A stretch of 32,131 bases of DNA from Candidatus Thorarchaeota archaeon. GTDB lineage: Archaea; Asgardarchaeota; Thorarchaeia; Thorarchaeales; Thorarchaeaceae. Position numbers and translations under genes: made by a program. How positions within the stretch are numbered: position 1 is the stretch's first letter; every line of letters begins with the position of its first letter. Location: contig DAOVDG010000011.1 of assembly GCA_030669595.1 (NCBI GenBank), forward strand, positions 1-32,131, written 5' to 3'. Under the pieces are notes generated by a model. The model was not told the origin of the DNA and searched no databases. It worked only from the letters and a program-made list of their open reading frames with translations. Positions 21,245 to 32,054 of the stretch are shown one piece after another.

Positions 21245-22330
21245 TTGATAAATTTGCCAGCACCCTGTTACCTCTGTGGCGAAGATGCAGTTCTAGAGGG
21301 ACTGTGCGCTTCATGCTATGCAAAGGAGCACCCTCTAATCCGAGTGGACACTCCGCTTCAGATTCGCACATGCAAACGTTGTGGGGCAGTGAAGGTGCCA
21401 GGTGGCTGGAAGGTGATTACTGGGCCTCCTCCAGCTAAGGATGAGCTGGTTGAGCGACAGCTGGAGTTGCTGCTACACCAGAGCGTGACACGCCTCGTTT
21501 CGGGCGTTGAGATTTCGCTTGAAGAGGAGAATCGACTTGATAGGGTATTGCACGTCACGGTGAATGCATCAGGCCGCTCCCACAACACTCTTCCTTCCCA
21601 CGAAGAGAGTTATCCATTAGAGGTCAGATTCAGTCATGGGACTTGTGATACCTGCGGAATGATGAGCGGAGGCTATTATAACGCCATTCTCCAGATACGA
21701 GCAGATAATCGATCCCTCACTGAATATGAAGAAGAGAGAATCAACACCATTGTCACTCAACGAACGGTGGAAGCGTACGGGAAAGATGTCAAGGCTTTCA
21801 TCACCTCGGCGAGCAAGGACCGGTACGGTCTCGATTTCCGAATTGGCTCAGAACACCTCTGTCGACGTCTTGCAGATGAGATTGAGGGCATGTTCTTGGC
21901 AGATAAAAAGGTGAACTACAAGCTGGTTGGGCAGAAAGGTGGCAAGAATCAGTATCGAACCACAATCTTGCTAAGGCTTCACAAATTTGTTACTGGTGAT
22001 TTCATAAGGGTCGCCACGAAACCTTGTCAGATTCAGTCCATGAGCAAGAATGGCATCTTATGTTATGATCTCACTGAGAGCTCTACATTCACAATCAATC
22101 CAAAGAGTTCCAAATGGAAGGGAATTGAGTTTCTTGCTCCGTCATCTGAGAATCGGCAATGTATGGTTATCTCTCGCCAGCATGGACAGCCCGCTCAGCT
22201 CATGGACTCGAAGACGTATGAAACAATCGAGGTTGAGGATCACCTATTGAATCCTAAGAGCACAAATGGCAGTGTTGTTCATGTCGTTCTAATCGACGGG
22301 CTTTTCTATCCTCTACCAACTGAAGATTAG
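21245..22330 (+). CDS. nmd3: NMD3 family ribosome-maturation protein
   Basis: 361 residues read from TTG at 21245. The N-terminus has the NMD3 zinc knuckles CYLCGEDAVLEGLCASCYAK and, later, CKRCGAVKVPGGW and CDTCGMMSGGYYNAILQIR. The middle holds the conserved SKDRYGLDFRIGSEHLCRRLADEI. Eukaryotic NMD3 exports the 60S subunit; archaeal versions lack the export tail and are thought to act in large-subunit maturation, which fits this protein's length. It is divergent from the UPF0251 gene, and 160 bases separate it from aIF1A, with a TATA-like box in between. TTG at 21254 is an alternative start. Confidence 0.93.
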   Translation: MINLPAPCYLCGEDAVLEGLCASCYAKEHPLIRVDTPLQIRTCKRCGAVKVPGGWKVITGPPPAKDELVERQLELLLHQSVTRLVSGVEISLEEENRLDRVLHVTVNASGRSHNTLPSHEESYPLEVRFSHGTCDTCGMMSGGYYNAILQIRADNRSLTEYEEERINTIVTQRTVEAYGKDVKAFITSASKDRYGLDFRIGSEHLCRRLADEIEGMFLADKKVNYKLVGQKGGKNQYRTTILLRLHKFVTGDFIRVATKPCQIQSMSKNGILCYDLTESSTFTINPKSSKWKGIEFLAPSSENRQCMVISRQHGQPAQLMDSKTYETIEVEDHLLNPKSTNGSVVHVVLIDGLFYPLPTED

Positions 22331-22414
22331 GAATCTCTTTGCGAAACCGTAGGAAATCGATTCTCCCGCTCCTTGATGCAATAAGGGCACGCAGTTTCGC
22401 TCATATGTAGGTAC

Positions 22415-22422
22415 GCTTAAAT
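22415..22422 (+). promoter_or_regulatory. TATA box for aIF1A
   Basis: CTTAAATG in the 160-base gap between nmd3 and aIF1A. A start near 22445 leaves about 45 bases of leader with GGAGG at 22480-22484, six bases before TTG 22491. Confidence 0.4.
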
Positions 22423-22490
22423 GGCCCTCCAATGCGTATTCTTTTGAGGCCATTAGACTGAGTAGTCTGGCTTCTAACTGGAGGATTAAC

Positions 22491-22838
22491 TTGCCCCCAA
22501 GAGGAAAAGGAAAAGCAAAACGCGGTCGCAGAGGCGCCCCCACAACTGGCGAAGAAGTAATGCGAGTGAGGACGCCAAGGAGAGACGATGGAGAACTCTT
22601 TGGCATCATCGTTCAGATGTTGGGTTTTGATAGAGTCAGAGTAAGATGTGAAGACGGGGAGATTCGCGTAGGTCGTATCCTTGGTCGCATGAAGAAGCGA
22701 GTCTGGATGCGAGTTGGGGACACAGTTCTGGTTGTTCCGTGGGAGTTTCAGACCGACGCCAAGTGTGATGTGGTATGGCGCTACAGGGGCAATGAAATTG
22801 AGTGGCTCCAGAAGAAAGGCCATCTGAAGATGTTCTGA
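22491..22838 (+). CDS. aif1a: Translation initiation factor aIF1A
   Basis: 115 residues from TTG at 22491, six bases after a perfect GGAGG. A basic tail (MPPRGKGKAKRGRRG) leads into an S1-like OB fold: GELFGIIVQMLGFDRVRVRCEDG, RVGRILGRMKKRVWMRVGD and VVPWEFQ. It binds the ribosomal A site during initiation. The rio1 and pno1 genes follow on the same strand, an order often kept in archaea. A T-rich run after the stop may end some transcripts. Confidence 0.96.
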   Translation: MPPRGKGKAKRGRRGAPTTGEEVMRVRTPRRDDGELFGIIVQMLGFDRVRVRCEDGEIRVGRILGRMKKRVWMRVGDTVLVVPWEFQTDAKCDVVWRYRGNEIEWLQKKGHLKMF

Positions 22839-22850
22839 TAGTTCCAAGAC

Positions 22851-22861
22851 TTTTTCTTCTT
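22851..22861 (+). terminator. T-rich terminator-like tract after aIF1A
   Basis: TTTTTCTTCTT begins 12 bases after the aIF1A stop. Archaeal RNA polymerase tends to terminate in such tracts without a hairpin. The rio1 gene begins 60 bases further on, so partial read-through is possible. Confidence 0.4.
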
Positions 22862-22921
22862 ACGGGGTTATTTTCGGCATTGGATTCCCTTAGGCCCTGC
22901 AATCTGGAGTGACAGTTCGAT

Positions 22922-23707
22922 TTGAAACGTGCAGAAACCAAACGCAAACAGATAGACGACAAGCTAGAGCGCCGTAGGATGAAGCGCAGAAAAGATGCTG
23001 ATGAGTTCAAGGTGGTTGAAGGCGTAATCGATCCGCCTACTCTAAAGGTTCTCTACAAGTTGTTCAACCGCGGGATGATTCGTGAGCTGCATGGTGCTAT
23101 CAGCACAGGAAAAGAGGCCAATGTGTATCGAGGCGTAGACCCCGAAGGCAACTCGGTTGCTGTCAAGATATACAGAATAAGTACTGCAGAAACTGACTGG
23201 ATGCGTGAGTACATCGTTGGTGATCCTCGGTTTCAGCGCGTGGCCAAGCGAAGTCGGTTTCTGATTCCGCAGTGGGCAATGAAAGAATACAAGAACCTGA
23301 TGCGTTACCACAAGGCCGGAATCAGAGTTCCAAAACCACTAGGCATTGAGCGCAATGTCTTAGTCATGGAGTTCATCGGAGATGAACAGGGTCTTCCTGC
23401 GCCACTACTCAGAAATGTTAAGTTAGAATCTCCAGTTGAAGTCTTCAACCAGCTGATTGAGATAATCGAGCAAGGTTACAAGGAGGCCGGCCTTGTGCAT
23501 GCAGACCTTAGCGAGTACAATGTATTATGGCTAGACGGGCCGGTTATCATTGATGTTTCTCAGGCCGTACTTCAAGGTCACACTAGCGCTGGACGGTACC
23601 TGTTCCGTGACATTCAAAACATAACCCAATACTTCAGAAAGCTAGGGGTCGAAACAGAAGATCCAAAGGTCATAACCAAGTATATTCTCTCTTCTGGTGA
23701 GAAATGA
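22922..23707 (+). CDS. rio1: RIO1 family atypical kinase/ATPase
   Basis: 261 residues from TTG at 22922, nine bases after GGAGTGA. A lysine/arginine-rich N-terminus precedes the RIO kinase core: the flexible nucleotide loop STGKEANVYRG, the lysine in VAVKIYRIS, the catalytic loop LVHADLSEYNVL and the metal motif IIDVSQAV. RIO1 acts in the last steps of small-subunit maturation, releasing factors by ATP turnover. All catalytic residues are present. It sits between aIF1A and pno1, and its end contains the ribosome site for pno1, so the two are translationally coupled. Confidence 0.96.
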   Translation: MKRAETKRKQIDDKLERRRMKRRKDADEFKVVEGVIDPPTLKVLYKLFNRGMIRELHGAISTGKEANVYRGVDPEGNSVAVKIYRISTAETDWMREYIVGDPRFQRVAKRSRFLIPQWAMKEYKNLMRYHKAGIRVPKPLGIERNVLVMEFIGDEQGLPAPLLRNVKLESPVEVFNQLIEIIEQGYKEAGLVHADLSEYNVLWLDGPVIIDVSQAVLQGHTSAGRYLFRDIQNITQYFRKLGVETEDPKVITKYILSSGEK

Positions 23708-23708
23708 G

Positions 23709-24272
23709 ATGCGATATAGCGAAACTGTTAGAGTGCCCGCCGAAAGGCTTGGTGTCATTGTTGGAAGAAACGGGCGAGTGAGGAAGCGGGTTCAGAAACT
23801 CACTAATGTTAAGATAGAGGTGAATCCAGAAGGTATTGTGACCATCACCAGTCCCGAGAAGACCGAGGATCCCGTGCTTGCCTGGAAGGCACGTGACATG
23901 ATTCGTGCAATGGCTCGAGGTTTTAGTCCAATGAGGGCTCTCTCGCTTATCGACGAGGATGCTCGACTAGTTGTAATATCATTGCGCGACACTGTAGGAA
24001 CATCACGGAACCAGCTGAAGCGGGTGGCTGGAAGAATAATCGGGGAGAATGGTCGCACCCGTAGAGCCATCGAAGAGATTACAGAAACCAAGATTTCGAT
24101 TTACGGTCATACAGTTTCGGTGATTGGTGCCGACCCAGGGCTTGAGTTCTCAAATCGAGCAATAGACATGCTCATTGGAGGCGCCCCCCATGGCACAGTC
24201 TACAGGTATCTTGAGAAGATGCGCAGAGAGATGAATCGTCAGAAGGCGGAGCTATGGGAAGAGGACTTCTGA
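23709..24272 (+). CDS. pno1: KH-domain rRNA-processing protein (Pno1/Dim2 homologue)
   Basis: 187 residues from ATG at 23709, eight bases after GGTGA (23696-23700). A GTG at 23697 would add four residues but would consume that ribosome site. Two KH domains are visible: the first with GVIVGRNGRVRKRVQKLT, the second with GRIIGENGRTRRAIEEIT, in which the GxxG loops bind RNA. Dim2/Pno1 binds the 3' end of pre-16S rRNA with Nob1 and RIO1, which fits the rio1 gene directly upstream (its stop is at 23705-23707). The C-terminus is charged and helical. Confidence 0.95.
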   Translation: MRYSETVRVPAERLGVIVGRNGRVRKRVQKLTNVKIEVNPEGIVTITSPEKTEDPVLAWKARDMIRAMARGFSPMRALSLIDEDARLVVISLRDTVGTSRNQLKRVAGRIIGENGRTRRAIEEITETKISIYGHTVSVIGADPGLEFSNRAIDMLIGGAPHGTVYRYLEKMRREMNRQKAELWEEDF

Positions 24273-24392
24273 GCGATTGAATTCTTGCAGATCTCTAGTA
24301 GTCCAAAACACAGAAATCTAAGAACTGGGTTATTCCAAGCGTTGTAATACCTCGTCTAATATGAAGTTGAACGCTTTTTCATTCGGATCGTT

Positions 24393-25910
24393 ATGAATCA
24401 AGATAACTCACTACACGGGGAATTCAGCAGCATCTCACCTGCCGAGTTCTTCTATCGTAATCGCCAGATGGCAGGCTTTGGTAATCCGAGTCAGGCGGTG
24501 TACTCGACGGTTAGGGAGTTGGTGGAGAACAGCATTGATGCCTGCGAGGAGGCACGTAGGCATCCCGATGTGCGAGTGAGCATAGATGAAGAGCGGTCCG
24601 GCATCGTAAGGGTCACGGTGTCTGACAACGGCACTGGAGTTCCCTACGACGAAGTTCCCAATGCCTTCGCTCGGGTACTCTATGGCGATAAATTCACAGC
24701 ACGACAGAGGCGTGGAACCTTTGGCCTCGGAGTGACCATGGCGGCACTCTACGGACAAATCACTACAGACTCTCCCGTGATTGTAGTGACTCAAACTAGC
24801 CACACGACTGGAAGATACTACCAGCTTCTCATTGACATAGAAAACAACCAGCCTGTAATTCTGTCTGACGAATCATATGAGAGAGAGGGCCCAGGCACTG
24901 AAGTTACAATCCGGCTCAAAGGCGACCTCAACCGATCGAGAGAACGCGTATACGACTATCTACAATTGACTACAGTGGCTTCTCCTCATGCACACATGGA
25001 ACTTGCAATCAATGGGTCCTCTATAATGAGGATGGGCTGGTGGCACCAGATACTTCCAGCGCCAACTACAACATCAAAGCCACATCCTCATGGTGCTGAT
25101 TTGGAATTGCTTCGGCGTCTTGTTGCTGACGCCGGTAAACGGAGTCTTCATGACTTCTTGGTTGAATCATTTCAAAGGATGGGAACACGTACTGCAACGC
25201 GTTTTCTCAAGTTCTTGGCAATCAATCCCCGGCAGGCTGTGAATACGCTTAGTCGAGGAGATATCTCTCGTCTTAGCTCTGCACTTCGCTCCTTTGACGG
25301 ACTCGGTCATCCCGATGGCAAATGTCTAAGTCCGATTGGAAAAGATGCCTTTCTTACCTCAATTGAGTCTGTATTCGCCCCCTCAGCTTTGACCTACGGA
25401 AGCAGAGGGCCTACCGAATGGAGTGGTAATGCATTCATTGTCGAGGGCGTGGTAGCGATTGGTACGGGCGCACGTACAGCCGAAGTCCCGACACTGTACA
25501 GATTCGCCAACCGGGTTCCGCTCTTGTACGACAGTGGTGAAGATGCTCTTACAAAGATGCTGAAACGGGTGAACTGGGTTCAATATGGGGTTGGGTCGAC
25601 CACCCCTGTTTCAATCTTCCTTCATCTATGCTCGACGAGAATTCCCTTCAAAGCCGCTGGAAAGCAGTCGATTGCCTCTTTGCCAGAGATCGAGCACGAA
25701 ACACTCTCATTGCTTAGAGAATTAGGAAGAAGCCTGAAGAAGACTCTCAAGAGGGGCGAACGTTCAGTGCGCAATGCGCAGAAAAAGCGTGAATTTGACA
25801 AGGCAATGAAACAGGTGGCACAGTTCAGTGCGGAACTGGCAGAATGCGATGCAGTTCCATCAACAGCTGAACTCGTTCACAGATTGTTCGAGGTGGGCCA
25901 TCATGTCTGA
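24393..25910 (+). CDS. top6B: DNA topoisomerase VI subunit B
   Basis: 505 residues. The GHKL ATPase motifs are clear: VRELVENSIDACEEARR (N box), VSDNGTGVP (G1) and RRGTFGLGVTMAALYG (G2/lid). The middle H2TH and transducer regions follow, with GVGSTTPVSIFLHLCSTRIPFK near 395-420. It supplies ATP-driven clamp closure for the type IIB topoisomerase. ATG at 24393 follows a TATA-like CTAATATG about 30 bases upstream, so the leader is short. Its last eight bases overlap the top6A start, which keeps the two subunits matched in amount. Confidence 0.97.
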   Translation: MNQDNSLHGEFSSISPAEFFYRNRQMAGFGNPSQAVYSTVRELVENSIDACEEARRHPDVRVSIDEERSGIVRVTVSDNGTGVPYDEVPNAFARVLYGDKFTARQRRGTFGLGVTMAALYGQITTDSPVIVVTQTSHTTGRYYQLLIDIENNQPVILSDESYEREGPGTEVTIRLKGDLNRSRERVYDYLQLTTVASPHAHMELAINGSSIMRMGWWHQILPAPTTTSKPHPHGADLELLRRLVADAGKRSLHDFLVESFQRMGTRTATRFLKFLAINPRQAVNTLSRGDISRLSSALRSFDGLGHPDGKCLSPIGKDAFLTSIESVFAPSALTYGSRGPTEWSGNAFIVEGVVAIGTGARTAEVPTLYRFANRVPLLYDSGEDALTKMLKRVNWVQYGVGSTTPVSIFLHLCSTRIPFKAAGKQSIASLPEIEHETLSLLRELGRSLKKTLKRGERSVRNAQKKREFDKAMKQVAQFSAELAECDAVPSTAELVHRLFEVGHHV

Positions 25911-26955
25911 TTTGTCCAAGTCGTTAAGCGTCCTTAAAGACCTTGGAATTGCCATAGTTCAGTCAATCGATAACGAAGAGTTTCCAACGCTCGAATTTCC
26001 CGGTCGCGGGACTGAGAATCTCGTGTATGATGAAGAGAGTAAGCAATTCGTGCTTGGCAAAACCCGTGTCATAAGGGACTCTAGTAACCTTCGTCATATC
26101 AAGAGTTTCACACAACTTGTTTGGGTCGCTTCCTACGCCAAACAACTGCTACAGGCTGGTAGAACCTGTTCTCTAAGAGACCTCTACTACTCGAGCGAAG
26201 CATTTGGTGTTGAATTTGCAGATCAAGCCGAATCAAATCGAGCTGTGACAGATCTCGAGTGTCTGACGGGCATTGCCAGAGAAGCATTTGGTGTGTTTCC
26301 AGAAGAGCGTTCGTCAATCTATGGTCAGGTGACAATGCGCTACACTGTTGCGGGATACGAAGGACGGGACGTGGACCTCACACTCAGTCCTGATGGGCTG
26401 CCGATAGGTCCGGCACTAGTAACTGCGGACCCAGTCGAATCCCAGGCTGAGCTGATTCTGGCAGTTGAATCCGGAGGCATGTTCTCTCGCCTGATTGAAA
26501 CAAGAGCTTGGGAACGTTTCAATGCGGTATTGATACACTTGGGAGGCCAGCCCCCACGAGCCACGCGTCAGTTGATACGTCGACTACATGACAATCTGAA
26601 TCTACCTGTGTACGTCTTCACGGATGGAGATCCTTGGGGAATGCATATTGCAAGAGTCATCTCCACAGGCAGTGCCAACGCCGCACACATCCAGGGGTTA
26701 ACAACTCCGGATGCGGAATGGATTGGAGTCACTGCTGATGACATAACCAAATACTCCTTACCATCGGAGCCACTGAACAATGCTGATCTGAAGCGCTTAG
26801 ACGAGCTCTCAAGAGACGTGAGATATTCTGATTCTATATGGCAGGACTACATCCGTGATTTCCATCAGTTGCAGAGGAAGGCGGAACAACAGGCATTCAG
26901 TAGGCATGGTATGGACTATGTCGTAGACACGTATATCCCAGAGAAGATCCACTAG
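25903..26955 (+). CDS. top6A: DNA topoisomerase VI subunit A (Spo11-like)
   Basis: 350 residues from ATG at 25903, with GAGGTGGG just ahead; longer in-frame readings into top6B are not needed. The winged-helix domain has the catalytic tyrosine in LRDLYYSSEAFG. The Toprim domain has the acidic E in LILAVESGGMFSRL and DGDPWGMHIAR. It cuts both DNA strands and passes another duplex through, relaxing supercoils and unlinking replicated DNA with Top6B. The stop overlaps that of the convergent GlcNAc-phosphotransferase gene in the four bases CTAG. Confidence 0.97.
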   Translation: MSDLSKSLSVLKDLGIAIVQSIDNEEFPTLEFPGRGTENLVYDEESKQFVLGKTRVIRDSSNLRHIKSFTQLVWVASYAKQLLQAGRTCSLRDLYYSSEAFGVEFADQAESNRAVTDLECLTGIAREAFGVFPEERSSIYGQVTMRYTVAGYEGRDVDLTLSPDGLPIGPALVTADPVESQAELILAVESGGMFSRLIETRAWERFNAVLIHLGGQPPRATRQLIRRLHDNLNLPVYVFTDGDPWGMHIARVISTGSANAAHIQGLTTPDAEWIGVTADDITKYSLPSEPLNNADLKRLDELSRDVRYSDSIWQDYIRDFHQLQRKAEQQAFSRHGMDYVVDTYIPEKIH

Positions 26956-27989
26956 AACAATCCAACTCCCCACGGGTATGCTATGAGAAGAAGAAGTACT
27001 GTTCCATATGCCAAAAGCGCTTGGAAGATGACAAGAAGAATCACATTCTTCTTTTCGGTCATGTTCTTGAAAAAGTGAGGTAACACCCAGTACATGGTGA
27101 ATGGGCCAACTACCTCCAAGGTCCCATCTTCTCTGGGACTGGCAAACTTGGCGTAATCCATCCCCGTCCTTTTCACATGAACCCTGTACAGGATGTAAAG
27201 CAGGAAATTAACTGCAAAGGGTGCAAAGATGATGATTGCAAGCCTATCCATGTTTCCCAGAATCAGCGCCACGGCAATTGCTGCACCAATTGGCAGTCTT
27301 CCAACATCACCTGGCAGAATCTTTGCGGGGTATTTGTTGTAAATAAGAAACGCCAACGCCGCGCCCAGCAGAGCAGCCGCAACTGTGCCGGCATCTAGCT
27401 GGCTCTGCATGATTGCCTTCCCTGTGAATAACGGAAGAAGAAGCACGTACAAAACCACGGCTGACGAGTTCACAGTCGCCAACCCCGCCTCCAATCCATT
27501 CATGCCCCCATACATGTTCGTGGAGTCGATGATGAATGTCATCATCAATGGCACAATAATCAATGGATAGAGAACTCCGAATTCTATCGTTCCTACGAAG
27601 GGAATCGAGATGATGGTCGTGCCCACAGCCATCACCGCCATTGGAATCGAAGCGATAAGTGGGAGTACTATCTTTGTCTTGTTTTTGAAATCTAGATTAT
27701 CATCGAGAAGTCCAATCATACCTGCCATCAGTATTGATACCAACGCAGCCAAGAGCCCAGGGGCTACTGCCTCAGCCCTGAGGAATGTGGTGCAACCGAT
27801 GACAACTAGCAGACTTGTCACAATCGCAAAGAGGACTATGTAGCCACCCCCCTTTGCCACCTCCGGCTTCCCAGATTTATGGACATCAATCCCCACTTTA
27901 CCCCTCTCTTTGAGGGTTCGGATTGTGGTTGGCATTGCTAGGAACACAATGAAGAATGCGATTATGACGGCGACCGCGATTGCGTACAA
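26952..27989 (-). CDS. ALG7/AglH-like polyprenyl-phosphate GlcNAc-1-phosphate transferase
   Basis: 345 residues from TTG at 27989, nine bases after GGAG. About ten membrane segments. Family motifs are GIDVHKSGKPEVAKGGG (the substrate loop, 33-49), MIGLLDD (DD 96-97, metal site), STNMYGGMNGLEAGLA (156-171) and PGDVGRLPIGAA. The NGLE-G signature is nearer to eukaryotic ALG7 and archaeal AglH than to bacterial MraY, so the likely reaction is UDP-GlcNAc plus dolichyl phosphate giving dolichyl-PP-GlcNAc, the first step of N-glycan assembly. It is divergent from a sequon-rich surface protein gene, 187 bases apart. Donor sugar is inferred. Confidence 0.88.
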   Translation of the reverse strand: MYAIAVAVIIAFFIVFLAMPTTIRTLKERGKVGIDVHKSGKPEVAKGGGYIVLFAIVTSLLVVIGCTTFLRAEAVAPGLLAALVSILMAGMIGLLDDNLDFKNKTKIVLPLIASIPMAVMAVGTTIISIPFVGTIEFGVLYPLIIVPLMMTFIIDSTNMYGGMNGLEAGLATVNSSAVVLYVLLLPLFTGKAIMQSQLDAGTVAAALLGAALAFLIYNKYPAKILPGDVGRLPIGAAIAVALILGNMDRLAIIIFAPFAVNFLLYILYRVHVKRTGMDYAKFASPREDGTLEVVGPFTMYWVLPHFFKNMTEKKNVILLVIFQALLAYGTVLLLLIAYPWGVGLF

Positions 27990-28176
27990 CTAGACTGTCT
28001 CCTTGTGTACTGGCGCATTTACAATCCGTTTTACACTTTTCGGGATGAACCAAGCACAGTACGAAGATTTCCTTGCCGAAATCTATTTTAGCAGTTCCGA
28101 AGTTGGGGCGCAACGTTTGCGGTGCAGTGAAACCTGAGACTGCATACCGTAAATGCATCAAATTCGGTGATTCATC

Positions 28177-31128
28177 TTGAGCCTACTACGTAGAAGAATA
28201 GCAACAGTTGCGTTACTGGCGATATTTGTCATCAGTGGCGTCGCGTTGACTATTCCTGAGTTGAATTCTTGGAATCCCACGACCTTGGCTCACAACACCC
28301 AACAGGACTACTCCTACGCGGAGTCGATGCTAAACGCCTCAATACCCTATGTCGACGTCCACTATGGCTCTGCTGACGGGATAATCGACCCAACAGAGTA
28401 CGCGTACAGCTACACAGACGTAGCCACTGGAGTTACCATTTACCTTGAGCACAATTCAACACTCCTCTATGTCGGGCTCTCAGCCACCACTTCCGGCTGT
28501 ATTGCCCTTGGTTGGCAGAACTACACCTCAGACTTCACAAGCAGCGGCCTCAACGGTAGCGACTTGATATTTGGATGCGCTCCAGATACGCCGCACGAGG
28601 ACTATTTGAGAGTGACTAGCAATGATATTGTCACTGTTCACTACAAGCTGTTTGACCGGAATGGAACCCTGATGCAGGAGAGCGATATTCCTAACGATGA
28701 TTCTACAACCCCGATAGGAGAAGAACGGCTACTCCAGGGCTACATAGATGAAATAATCGGCATGAGAATCGGTGAAGAGCGTCATTTCATTATTCCTGCT
28801 GAGGAAGGCTACACTACGATTAACCATGAGCTATATGGAAAGGACCTTGAATATGTCATAACTCTGACACGAATCGGGTCCAATACAAACAACCCTGCTG
28901 ACGCAAGTCAGATAGTCTACAGGGATGACCATGCCATAGGCACATTCCAGCATCTTCCGGACGCTGATCAAAGCCGGATTGTTGCAGCGAATGGCAGTGA
29001 TGATGGCACCACAACAGAACTAGAGTATTTCATCAAAATGAACAGTACCGATCCCAATGACATTCCTCTGTTCAATGCAACAGATGTACAGTTTCCTTTC
29101 ATCCTGATGTTCGGAGGTTCTGAGAACTTCGATGAACTTCCGGTACAGCACACTGATTGGGCAAACCCCCTTATGGTTGAATTAGTGGGCAATACAGCAC
29201 CATCCATTGTTGTGGAAAACCCAACTCAGGATGGAGTTCTTGGTTTGGTGGCGGCGTTGAAAATCAACGTGACCGACAACACATACGTGCGGACGGCTCA
29301 CTACCGGATTGATGATGAGAACTGGACACAGATATTTCACAACTTCCAGTCCGACTTATGGGAAGTCAATGTTGACCTTTCTGAATTCGAGATTGGAAGC
29401 CACCAAGTCTGGTTCAAGGCAACTGATGTTTCCAATGTGACCAGTACGGCAATAGTGAACGTCACAATTGATTGGCCTTTTACTCCACTTATTGGAATGC
29501 GTCTTGATGTCGATAGGAGCTTCATGACACAGCCGTATCATAACACGAAGATTGAGGATGCATACACAATCCGCAACAACGGAACGGCCCCGATTGGAGC
29601 ATTGGAATTCTTCCTTCCGCAACCATGGCCGAGCAATTTCCTCTCAGTGTTGGCGGAAGACAGTGCTGGGAACGAGCTTGAGCTAGTACAACTTGATGAT
29701 CTCAACGGAATGATGCACTTCAGAGTCTATTTCGTTGAACCAGTCGGATTCCAAGATTCCCTAACATTTACGACGACAATGATGATGCATTCGTTGCATA
29801 AGCTCGTGGAAAACAATATCTACGACGCTACATATCTGAAGTACCCCACTGTACCCTATGTCCTGAAGACTGCGACGATGAAAGTCAGTTTCAGGAGTGG
29901 TGACTCTATTCAAGGCGATGTTCCAGACACTGACGACATCAATGTGGCTCCGATGAGCATGGAGGAGTTCGACTTCTCGCTACGGTCATACACACCGTTG
30001 ATTGATGCTGAACGGACCACTCAGATTGTAGTCGATGCATGGGGATGGCTCTCTTATAGCGAAACTATCAGCATAGAAAACATTGGTCCTGCAAAGGAGA
30101 ACTACTTCACATTCACGCTACCTGCTTACACAGCTGATCTCCGGATCTATGACGAAGTCGGAACTCTTGCGGAGTCGATGCCCCGTGAAGAGCTGAATTT
30201 CAATGATACACTTGAGATTAGGATTGATCTCAGGAGTGACCGCTTTGGCCTCGACGGATTCTCGCCCGGATACTCGTATACATTCTGGATTGACTACGTT
30301 ATACAGGCATCAAGTTATTCGGATGCTATTCCATCAGGTAGTCAGCTGAAGGTTCCGATAGCAACGTTCGGTGATGTGCTCGTAAGCAAGCATACAATCG
30401 ATATTGTATTTCCAATCTCAACCAACCTCGTAGAAACCTCAGGCGATTATGCTCTCATATATGGTGTATTTGACACGTCGATTAGATACACAGTCTATAA
30501 CACGACACAGGACAACCCACCCAACATCGTGTTGGTATACCAGGTTTCGGTAGGAGCTGCTGCTCGACCCATCCTCTTTTCACTGATTGCGGGTTTCATT
30601 GCCCTCATCTACGTAATGTACAGAAAAGTAGACTTGCCAGAGGAGATTGTCGGTTCGGGTGAAGAAGAACCAACTGCAACTGAGGCCAAATCTACGGGTG
30701 CGCCTCCAGAGCTCCTGAGGGAGTTTGCTACGCTCTATTCTAGGAAGACCGCTTTGAACATGGATCTTGAGAAGTTTGAGGCATCTCGAAGAAGAGGAAA
30801 GGTCAAGAAGAGGGAGTTCATGATTCGTCAGAAGGACATCAAGTCGCAGATGGAAAAGATTGACTTTCAGCTCCCATCGTTAAAGGATAAGCTCATCAGC
30901 GAAGGCGTGAGATACAGAGACATCGTAGCTCAGCTCGAGCTTCACGAAGAACGAATCGAGGGTGCAAAGGCCGGTCTCCGTCAGCTCCTTCTCAGGAAGA
31001 AGAAACAGAGGATTAGCCGTGCGGCTTTCGAGAAGGCTCGACAGGACTATCTAAAGGTCATCAAGAAGAGCACCAGCGCTACAGACCGCATTCTACTCTC
31101 GATTCAGGATGAGGCTGGAGATATCTAG
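28177..31128 (+). CDS. Large membrane-anchored surface protein: DOMON with inserted FKBP-like domain, Ig-like domain, coiled-coil tail
   Basis: 983 residues from TTG at 28177, six bases after GGTGA. Order: a signal or anchor segment (8-28); a DOMON-like first half (64-136: DGIIDPTEYAYSYTD, LLYVGLSATTSGCIALGWQ); an FKBP-like domain (147-235: VTVHYKLFDRNGTLMQESD, LLQGYIDEIIGMRIGEERHF, YGKDLEYVITL); a DOMON-like second half (245-336); an Ig-like domain (341-433); a long beta-rich region; a membrane helix (about 796-815); and a basic coiled coil to the end (about 845-983). Many N-x-S/T sites outside suggest N-glycosylation. The topology puts the bulk outside and 167 residues inside. FKBP may act as a chaperone for extracytoplasmic proteins; DOMON domains often bind haem or sugar. 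Function as a whole is unknown. Confidence 0.78.
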   Translation: MSLLRRRIATVALLAIFVISGVALTIPELNSWNPTTLAHNTQQDYSYAESMLNASIPYVDVHYGSADGIIDPTEYAYSYTDVATGVTIYLEHNSTLLYVGLSATTSGCIALGWQNYTSDFTSSGLNGSDLIFGCAPDTPHEDYLRVTSNDIVTVHYKLFDRNGTLMQESDIPNDDSTTPIGEERLLQGYIDEIIGMRIGEERHFIIPAEEGYTTINHELYGKDLEYVITLTRIGSNTNNPADASQIVYRDDHAIGTFQHLPDADQSRIVAANGSDDGTTTELEYFIKMNSTDPNDIPLFNATDVQFPFILMFGGSENFDELPVQHTDWANPLMVELVGNTAPSIVVENPTQDGVLGLVAALKINVTDNTYVRTAHYRIDDENWTQIFHNFQSDLWEVNVDLSEFEIGSHQVWFKATDVSNVTSTAIVNVTIDWPFTPLIGMRLDVDRSFMTQPYHNTKIEDAYTIRNNGTAPIGALEFFLPQPWPSNFLSVLAEDSAGNELELVQLDDLNGMMHFRVYFVEPVGFQDSLTFTTTMMMHSLHKLVENNIYDATYLKYPTVPYVLKTATMKVSFRSGDSIQGDVPDTDDINVAPMSMEEFDFSLRSYTPLIDAERTTQIVVDAWGWLSYSETISIENIGPAKENYFTFTLPAYTADLRIYDEVGTLAESMPREELNFNDTLEIRIDLRSDRFGLDGFSPGYSYTFWIDYVIQASSYSDAIPSGSQLKVPIATFGDVLVSKHTIDIVFPISTNLVETSGDYALIYGVFDTSIRYTVYNTTQDNPPNIVLVYQVSVGAAARPILFSLIAGFIALIYVMYRKVDLPEEIVGSGEEEPTATEAKSTGAPPELLREFATLYSRKTALNMDLEKFEASRRRGKVKKREFMIRQKDIKSQMEKIDFQLPSLKDKLISEGVRYRDIVAQLELHEERIEGAKAGLRQLLLRKKKQRISRAAFEKARQDYLKVIKKSTSATDRILLSIQDEAGDI

Positions 31129-31199
31129 CCGCCTCCTCCCACTTCGCAAGTCTTATCACATGAACCGTCACAAGAGAATGTCCCCCTGGGGGCCTAGTC

Positions 31200-32054
31200 A
31201 TGAACGAGCATCAAGTCTTCAACAGAAATGACGTCACCGTCAGTGATTTGCTCGAGCCCAACTCAAAGGCTCTAGAGATGTATCAGTATCTCAAGAATTC
31301 GCCAAAGGTCCAATCCTACCTCCGAACGGCGAACAGAATGGCTGTCTCTCGACTGGGCTACACAGACCACGGGCCTGTTCATGCAGAGGTGGCAACTTGG
31401 AACGCCATCAAGATATTCAACATTCTCGACGACACCTTCAGGCCCAATGTTGTGGCTGAGGGCATAGGTGACACTGATGATGCTCGCCTAATCGTGCTAG
31501 CATCGACATATTTGCATGACATTGGAATGACGGTACACCGAGAAGAACACTACCAAGCCTCACTCCAACTAGCAGTTCCAATCCTTGAGCCAAAGCTAGA
31601 AGCCATATACTCGGATACGTCATTAGCGACTGACATAATGTCCTTCATAATGCACGGCATCTACTCCCACGACGACGACACTCAATGTCTGACTCTTGAG
31701 GCCGGAATTACAAAGCTAGGTGATGGCAGCGACCTAACGAAAGGGCGCACCATTGTGCCCTATCACAAAGGCAAGGTTGACATCCATTCAGTGAGTGCGC
31801 TTGCCATCAACAATGTTATTGTTGAGAAAGGTGAGAAGAAGCCCCTTCGCATTACCGTGGCAATGGACAATCCTGCAGGAGTCTTTCAAGTGCAGGCTGT
31901 CCTAGAGAAGAAGATTCGCACTTCGGGCCTACGTGATCATATCACAATATACGTGCTTGTCAACGGCGAAAGGCTTATTCTCTCACACGTTAAACGACTC
32001 TTCAAAGTACAGATCACTGATCCTCCGGATGATTTGAAAATCGAATCGAAGTAA
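31200..32054 (+). CDS. HD-domain metal-dependent phosphohydrolase
   Basis: 284 residues from ATG at 31200, with GGGGG ahead as ribosome site. HD superfamily signatures are TDHGPVH (H57, H61), TYLHDIGMTVHREEH (H106, D107, H113) and, later, ITKLGDGSDLTKGR, where the aspartate completes the metal site. The last 90 residues (IHSVSALAINNVIVEKGEKK onward) form an alpha-beta domain seen in archaeal HD proteins of this kind. The family hydrolyses phosphate esters, including nucleotides and cyclic dinucleotides; the substrate here is not evident. The stop codon is immediately followed by the 3' end of a tRNA gene on the other strand. Confidence 0.85.
   Translation: MNEHQVFNRNDVTVSDLLEPNSKALEMYQYLKNSPKVQSYLRTANRMAVSRLGYTDHGPVHAEVATWNAIKIFNILDDTFRPNVVAEGIGDTDDARLIVLASTYLHDIGMTVHREEHYQASLQLAVPILEPKLEAIYSDTSLATDIMSFIMHGIYSHDDDTQCLTLEAGITKLGDGSDLTKGRTIVPYHKGKVDIHSVSALAINNVIVEKGEKKPLRITVAMDNPAGVFQVQAVLEKKIRTSGLRDHITIYVLVNGERLILSHVKRLFKVQITDPPDDLKIESK

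Follow-up and report, generated by a model that had tools for sequence, protein, structure and literature searches.

Introduction

What kind of protein would carry an FKBP domain set within another domain, outside the cell? This question is raised by a locus in a 32,131-nucleotide stretch of a Candidatus Thorarchaeota genome (contig DAOVDG010000011.1, assembly GCA_030669595.1; hereafter the window). A first-pass annotation of this DNA had described an FKBP-type region splitting a DOMON domain, had read it as a prolyl isomerase built into a sugar- or haem-binding domain on the outer cell surface, and knew of no described system of this form. What it missed, and what decides the biology, is that the DOMON-FKBP unit is the N-terminal arm of ribophorin I/OST1. 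Thorarchaeia belong to the Asgard archaea, which are related to the ancestor of eukaryotes. Oligosaccharyltransferase (OST) transfers sugar chains onto newly made proteins, and ribophorin I is a core part of this enzyme. The OST1 of Asgard archaea has been described before (PMC10307638, PMC8813620, PMC11417166). What is new is the nested DOMON{FKBP} arm carried by OST1; it is real and conserved, and we infer a function for it.

Organisation of the gene and of the protein

The features of the locus are collected in Table 1. Domain identities, nesting, lineage-wide conservation and the single copy were established by computation. About 30 genomes have an orthologue of the open reading frame that is collinear with it from residue 1 to residue 983, which rules out an artefact of the reading frame or of the assembly. 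The 983-residue protein taken alone is poorly informative in Pfam/NCBIfam scans, where only the FKBP domain is recovered, trigger factor and other families staying under the cut-off. The AlphaFold2 model of the full-length protein has a pLDDT of 81.9 and a pTM of 0.43, the latter value meaning that the mutual orientations of the domains are not given by the model. The arm lies on the extracytoplasmic face of the membrane, in agreement with the first reading of the sequence.

Table 1. Features of the OST1 locus, in coordinates of the window
Feature	Residues	Coordinates	Strand	Evidence or remark
Glycos_transf_4, polytopic (ALG7/DPAGT1-MraY type)		26952..27989	-	divergent neighbour of OST1, 11/11 Thorarchaeial loci
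Whole OST1 (ribophorin I) gene with N-terminal DOMON{FKBP}-Ig arm		28177..31128	+	983 aa, TTG start
Signal sequence/N-terminal hydrophobic helix	8-25	28198..28251	+	hydropathy; helix in full-length model
DOMON, first part	52-138	28330..28590	+	profile evidence; AlphaFold2
Inserted segment with FKBP	139-244	28591..28908	+	junction set by uninterrupted DOMON relatives
FKBP_C domain	146-230	28612..28866	+	Pfam PF00254
DOMON, second part	245-345	28909..29211	+	joined-flank profile; uninterrupted DOMON relatives
Ig-like domain	346-432	29212..29472	+	Pfam Big_7 in 22/29 members
Ribophorin I/OST1 extracytoplasmic domains (two)	440-790	29494..30546	+	PF04597 in orthologues; RPN1/Ost1 profile and fold
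Transmembrane helix	792-817	30550..30627	+	hydropathy; AlphaFold2
Cytosolic four-helix bundle	844-983	30706..31125	+	homologous to MK-D1 OST1 ribosome-binding domain, PDB 8WHN

The C-terminal part is ribophorin I/OST1

From residue 440 to residue 983, the protein is the oligosaccharyltransferase subunit ribophorin I/OST1. The true nature of the protein was pointed to by a split in the span of its matches among 59 related genomes. In nearly every genome of the family to which the window belongs, a collinear orthologue of 48-91% identity is found, covering residues 1-983 where the contig end does not cut the reading frame. In the other Asgard families, the match is mainly confined to residues ~424-980, at ~22-27% identity. 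When the full-length model was compared with the PDB using Foldseek, the first eight ranks were all human RPN1 or yeast Ost1 (E 2.7e-28 to 2.5e-17). Integrin and complement chains were also returned, but these matches reflect multi-domain beta-sandwich architecture (TM ~0.1) and were rejected.

Sequence profiles lead to the same identification. A profile of residues 430-983 together with other Asgard members matches human RPN1 over its full length (E 2.3e-35), as well as the OST1 of MK-D1 (8WHN, E 9.8e-34) and yeast Ost1 (E 9.4e-13). Because this profile contained members from outside Thorarchaeia, the search was rerun with Thorarchaeial sequences only; 8WHN was matched again, at E 1.1e-10, and human RPN1 was not found with this restricted profile. 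The Ribophorin_I family (PF04597) exceeds its cut-off in 14 of the 59 related genomes, including fused Thorarchaeial reading frames (for instance in genome G018), and does not reach it with the window protein alone. Homology of the extracytoplasmic domains is accompanied by the single transmembrane helix and the cytosolic four-helix bundle of an OST1.

An FKBP domain nested in a DOMON domain

In the arm, the FKBP domain is inserted inside one DOMON domain spanning residues 52-345. FKBP_C itself is recognised by Pfam in the window protein (39.2 bits against a cut-off of 21.1, E = 8.9e-10), at residues 146-230 where the first-pass annotation had proposed 147-235, and it is present in all 29 family members; profile and fold both assign it to the FKBP family. 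The assignment of the flanks required evidence from the whole family. As had been suggested, the two halves were joined and compared with DOMON profiles; with the window protein alone, Pfam gives no DOMON match to the joined flanks, which are too divergent. With the insert in place, PF03351 matches 8 of 29 orthologues (best E 3.9e-5), and across 39 relatives it gives a single, sub-threshold match.

A joined-flank profile was therefore built from residues 52-138 and 245-345 of the family sequences with the insert removed. A profile search of 228 Asgard genomes, retaining loci with the DOMON parts and without FKBP, yielded the set of uninterrupted relatives. In five of these (L089-L093), the joined-flank profile runs across the junction with E values from 4.7e-16 to 3.7e-12 (Z = 1e5); in the control, the best E value over 2000 shuffles was 18. 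These five proteins, from other Asgard lineages, are DOMON by Pfam alone (E 1.1e-9 to 5e-29). They carry the same domain, aligned through the junction, without FKBP insert. In L093, profile positions 98 and 207 fall on residues 123 and 126, so that two residues stand where ~108 are inserted in the Thorarchaeial protein. By this alignment, the two-residue junction is the natural empty site of the insertion. Hence the proposal that both halves form one domain once the middle is removed is borne out, and tandem rather than nested domains are ruled out by the joined-flank profile and the L093 junction. A complete FKBP within a DOMON therefore constitutes a clear case of domain insertion for which empty-site relatives exist in nature. 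One of the uninterrupted proteins (L092:801-1967) continues after its DOMON with a Big_1 Ig-like domain and has a hydrophobic segment at its C-terminus; this DOMON-Ig-TM layout resembles that of the OST1 arm minus the FKBP.

Nesting rests on this profile evidence, with structure prediction as support. The AlphaFold2 model of residues 40-440 is confident (pLDDT 89.7, pTM 0.84). Taken together, profiles and model speak against separate independent domains and against flanks devoid of a DOMON fold. Compared with the PDB using Foldseek, this model returns mostly multi-Ig chains and FKBP chains, at low whole-query TM, which is why these matches were used as support. Among the matches listed, the highest query-normalised TM belongs to the haem-binding, DOMON-like NxrC, a subunit of nitrite oxidoreductase (7b04_C), with probability 1.00; the alignment runs over 344 columns, more than an insert-free DOMON would span. 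At the family level, profile, fold and contiguity without the insert all concur on DOMON.

The match to NxrC raises the idea that the arm is an OST-coupled redox DOMON carrying haem b. Consistent with it, His325 aligns with the DOMON haem histidine and is conserved in 25 of the 29 members; the uninterrupted relatives keep a Met/His pair that we take to be the haem pair of DOMON cytochromes, the methionine being present in all five. In contrast, the position of the axial methionine is Leu or Ile in every one of the 29 members of the Thorarchaeial family, which therefore lacks the axial Met-plus-His signature of haem-binding DOMON domains. Haem is thus unlikely despite the histidine; the haem-binding domain of the first reading is doubtful, and a redox role for the arm would be very surprising.

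Distribution and conservation of the arm

The N-terminal DOMON-FKBP-Ig module is found in 44 of 47 genomes of the family, a count that includes a few genomes with fragments at contig ends. The three remaining genomes are all MAGs at most 87% complete, and in one of them (G005) a fragment of the C-terminal end of OST1 is present. A profile search of 228 Asgard genomes gave no match to the whole module elsewhere in the phylum, where single pieces are matched, namely free FKBPs, Ig domains and free DOMONs. The OST1s examined in other Asgard families begin at the OST1 domain, without the arm. Each genome of the family has at most one copy of OST1, and no other OST1 was found there. The arm, about 430 N-terminal residues, is a new extracytoplasmic addition to OST1.

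The architecture is preserved over about 13 genera; beyond the genus of the window protein, its DOMON and FKBP parts are matched at 44-72% identity, a degree of preservation that exceeds chance. Outside the genus, the mean identity to the window protein is 65% for the first part of DOMON, 61% for FKBP and 53% for the second part of DOMON, against 46% for the extracytoplasmic domains of OST1. That the first DOMON part and FKBP exceed the OST1 extracytoplasmic domains argues that the arm is under selection. The cytosolic domain is the most conserved part of all (70%). The corresponding domain of MK-D1 OST1 has been crystallised and binds ribosomes (PMC11417166), and such conservation makes co-translational docking of the Thorarchaeial protein plausible.

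An additional DOMON-FKBP-Ig protein was noticed in one genome (L038:630-2387, G023). It has 586 residues, a C-terminal hydrophobic anchor and no ribophorin part; its DOMON match after the FKBP is weak and its branch is long.

Gene neighbourhood and other OST components

The gene upstream of OST1, in divergent orientation, belongs to Glycos_transf_4 by Pfam (2e-28). Among solved structures, it is closest to human DPAGT1 (5e-15) and bacterial MraY (3.5e-14), scores that do not separate the two. In an archaeon with an OST, the natural reading would be an ALG7-like enzyme acting at the first step of N-glycan assembly. The order OST1, ALG7-like, TopoVI A, TopoVI B, KH, RIO1, NMD3 is found in all 11 Thorarchaeial loci compared. 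On the downstream side, an HD-like protein (31200-32054, 66-96% identity) also lies inside the strictly conserved order, which occupies 21245-32054 of the window. Two further Asgard families (L087, L088) have a gene related to the glycosyltransferase close to OST1.

STT3 was found in relatives, including genomes of the same genus; in the MAG of the window, which is 84.6% complete, only a sub-threshold fragment of it was detected. Asgard homologues of Ost3/6 are short reading frames, often of 140-220 residues, matching only positions ~176-290 of PF04756 (for example G000:C72:34317-34631), with equivalents in many relatives, several of them near STT3. These short proteins correspond to the membrane part without the thioredoxin domain and resemble human DC2/OSTC.

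The FKBP pocket and the possible role of the arm

The pocket was compared, in the 29 aligned members, with what we take to be the catalytic residues of FKBP12 (Tyr26, Phe36, Asp37, Phe46, Ile56, Trp59, Tyr82 and Phe99). The canonical set is not retained in these members. The equivalents of Tyr26 and Tyr82 are invariant, Ile56 is replaced by Leu throughout, and Tyr stands for Trp59 in 28 members and for Phe99 in 27. The catalytic Asp37 is changed to Gln or Glu, and Phe46 to Ser, in 27 of 29 members each, and the Phe36 position is mostly aliphatic. The nearest FKBP relatives found in the phylum are Asgard membrane FKBPs (L094-L098), which are free-standing and have a hydrophobic anchor. Most of them keep Phe36-Asp37, unlike the FKBP of the OST1 arm, and the pair is retained in five of six free Asgard membrane FKBPs aligned. 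Two of these loci, which like L095 come from other Asgard families (L094:64-705 and L098:754-1491), show a cysteine-rich, zinc-ribbon-like C-terminal tail beyond the hydrophobic segment, and two FKBP genes adjoin in L095:735-1760.

The replacement of Asp37, Phe46 and Phe36 suggests that the FKBP of the arm would serve chaperone-like holding or docking of a peptide rather than fast, efficient isomerisation. Of the prolyl isomerase first proposed, the FKBP fold is thus retained and the activity is doubtful. A genuine folding catalyst, that is an active PPIase speeding proline isomerisation of secreted proteins during their glycosylation, would be in keeping with FKBP_C scoring over the cut-off in the window protein and recurring in every member, and with the maintenance of Tyr26, Tyr82 and the tyrosines at positions 59 and 99. 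However, the loss of Asp37 and Phe46 in nearly all members, set against the Phe-Asp pair of the free Asgard FKBPs, makes such a catalyst improbable.

The arm is probably a membrane-tethered clamp that keeps nascent chains, and perhaps also glycan, close to where glycosylation takes place, as a cis-fused counterpart of FKBP11. The OST1 subunit of the Thorarchaeial oligosaccharyltransferase is composed of the DOMON{FKBP} arm, in which the FKBP occupies one loop of the DOMON beta-sandwich, followed by an Ig-like spacer, the OST1 domains, the transmembrane helix and a four-helix bundle of the ribosome-binding kind. In the proposed mechanism, on leaving the translocon, the nascent chain would meet STT3, and the arm may reach over the site. 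The FKBP pocket would bind extended proline-containing segments, and the DOMON face could bind polypeptide, glycan or a partner. Acceptor sequons would thereby be kept unfolded and near the catalytic subunit. We put forward more tentatively the wider idea that Asgard archaea may have independently built a chaperone/prolyl-isomerase-type arm into OST1, DOMON{FKBP} being a new substrate clamp of N-glycosylation.

Alternatively, the arm may clamp glycan or the lipid-linked oligosaccharide, the CBM9-like face of DOMON holding either the donor or the newly formed N-glycan, with the FKBP as no more than a structural insert that shapes a loop. Carbohydrate binders exist among DOMON-type folds, and the neighbouring gene is of an N-glycan-pathway type. 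Yet the identity maintained by the FKBP (61%), together with its invariant Tyr26, Leu56 and Tyr82, is more than a passive spacer would need, and we regard this alternative as rather unlikely compared with the clamp for nascent chains.

Comparison with known systems

Human RPN1, yeast Ost1 and MK-D1 OST1 (8WHN; PF04597) share with the Thorarchaeial protein the two extracytoplasmic beta domains, the single transmembrane helix and the cytosolic four-helix bundle. In contrast, the human, yeast and other Asgard OST1s examined are without the ~430-residue DOMON{FKBP}-Ig part of Thorarchaeial OST1. No published description of an FKBP-OST1 fusion was found in a search that covered papers outside subscription, so that an earlier mention is possible; the published accounts of Asgard OST1 that were searched for the word FKBP do not mention it. 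To that extent, the impression that no system of this form had been described holds. The arm also shows that the Asgard OST is not simply a stripped-down eukaryotic complex but one elaborated lineage by lineage, which bears on the origin of the eukaryotic translocon. Moreover, an FKBP covalently held in ribophorin I, in a module present throughout most of the family, connects FKBP domains with N-glycosylation in the manner of a Rosetta stone, a link that is testable on soluble fragments.

The closest parallel is FKBP11, a transmembrane-anchored FKBP that has been captured by cryo-EM at the human OST-A/Sec61 translocon (PMC12804085, PDB 9n9j) and has been called metazoan-specific (PMC13261788). 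The Thorarchaeial fusion bears on why human cells have an FKBP at this translocon. FKBP11 is among the Foldseek matches to the model of residues 40-440. By sequence, it is matched by the FKBP of the arm at E 0.038, behind plant FKBP70, FKBP2 and many others. This similarity is that of FKBPs in general; membership of the FKBP11 family was rejected on this ground, and the parallel is most likely convergent. In addition, the ligand site of FKBP11 lies buried under CCDC134, and the authors of that structure favour an adaptor role and argue against an isomerase role (PMC12804085), so that the parallel alone gives no support for isomerase activity.

An adaptor role may also be imagined for the arm, as a docking element for an envelope partner such as the S-layer or a translocon subunit specific to Thorarchaeia, taking no part in the handling of nascent chains. 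The proposal that FKBP11 is an adaptor for CCDC134 (PMC12804085) would favour such a view, as would the paralogue with its own membrane anchor in L038, which indicates that the module can work away from OST. However, no candidate partner was identified, and we consider a purely docking function as a minor possibility beside the nascent-chain clamp.

If the clamp is the true function, FKBP-assisted handling of nascent chains at the OST-translocon arose separately in Thorarchaeia and, with FKBP11, in metazoa. The arm would be the cis-fused equivalent of human FKBP11 docking at the OST-A translocon, probably reached independently. Both cases present a membrane-tethered, extracytoplasmic FKBP at an OST that contains ribophorin I. 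FKBP11, however, is a separate protein with a transmembrane helix of its own, whereas the Thorarchaeial FKBP is provided in cis, within a DOMON domain, on OST1 itself.
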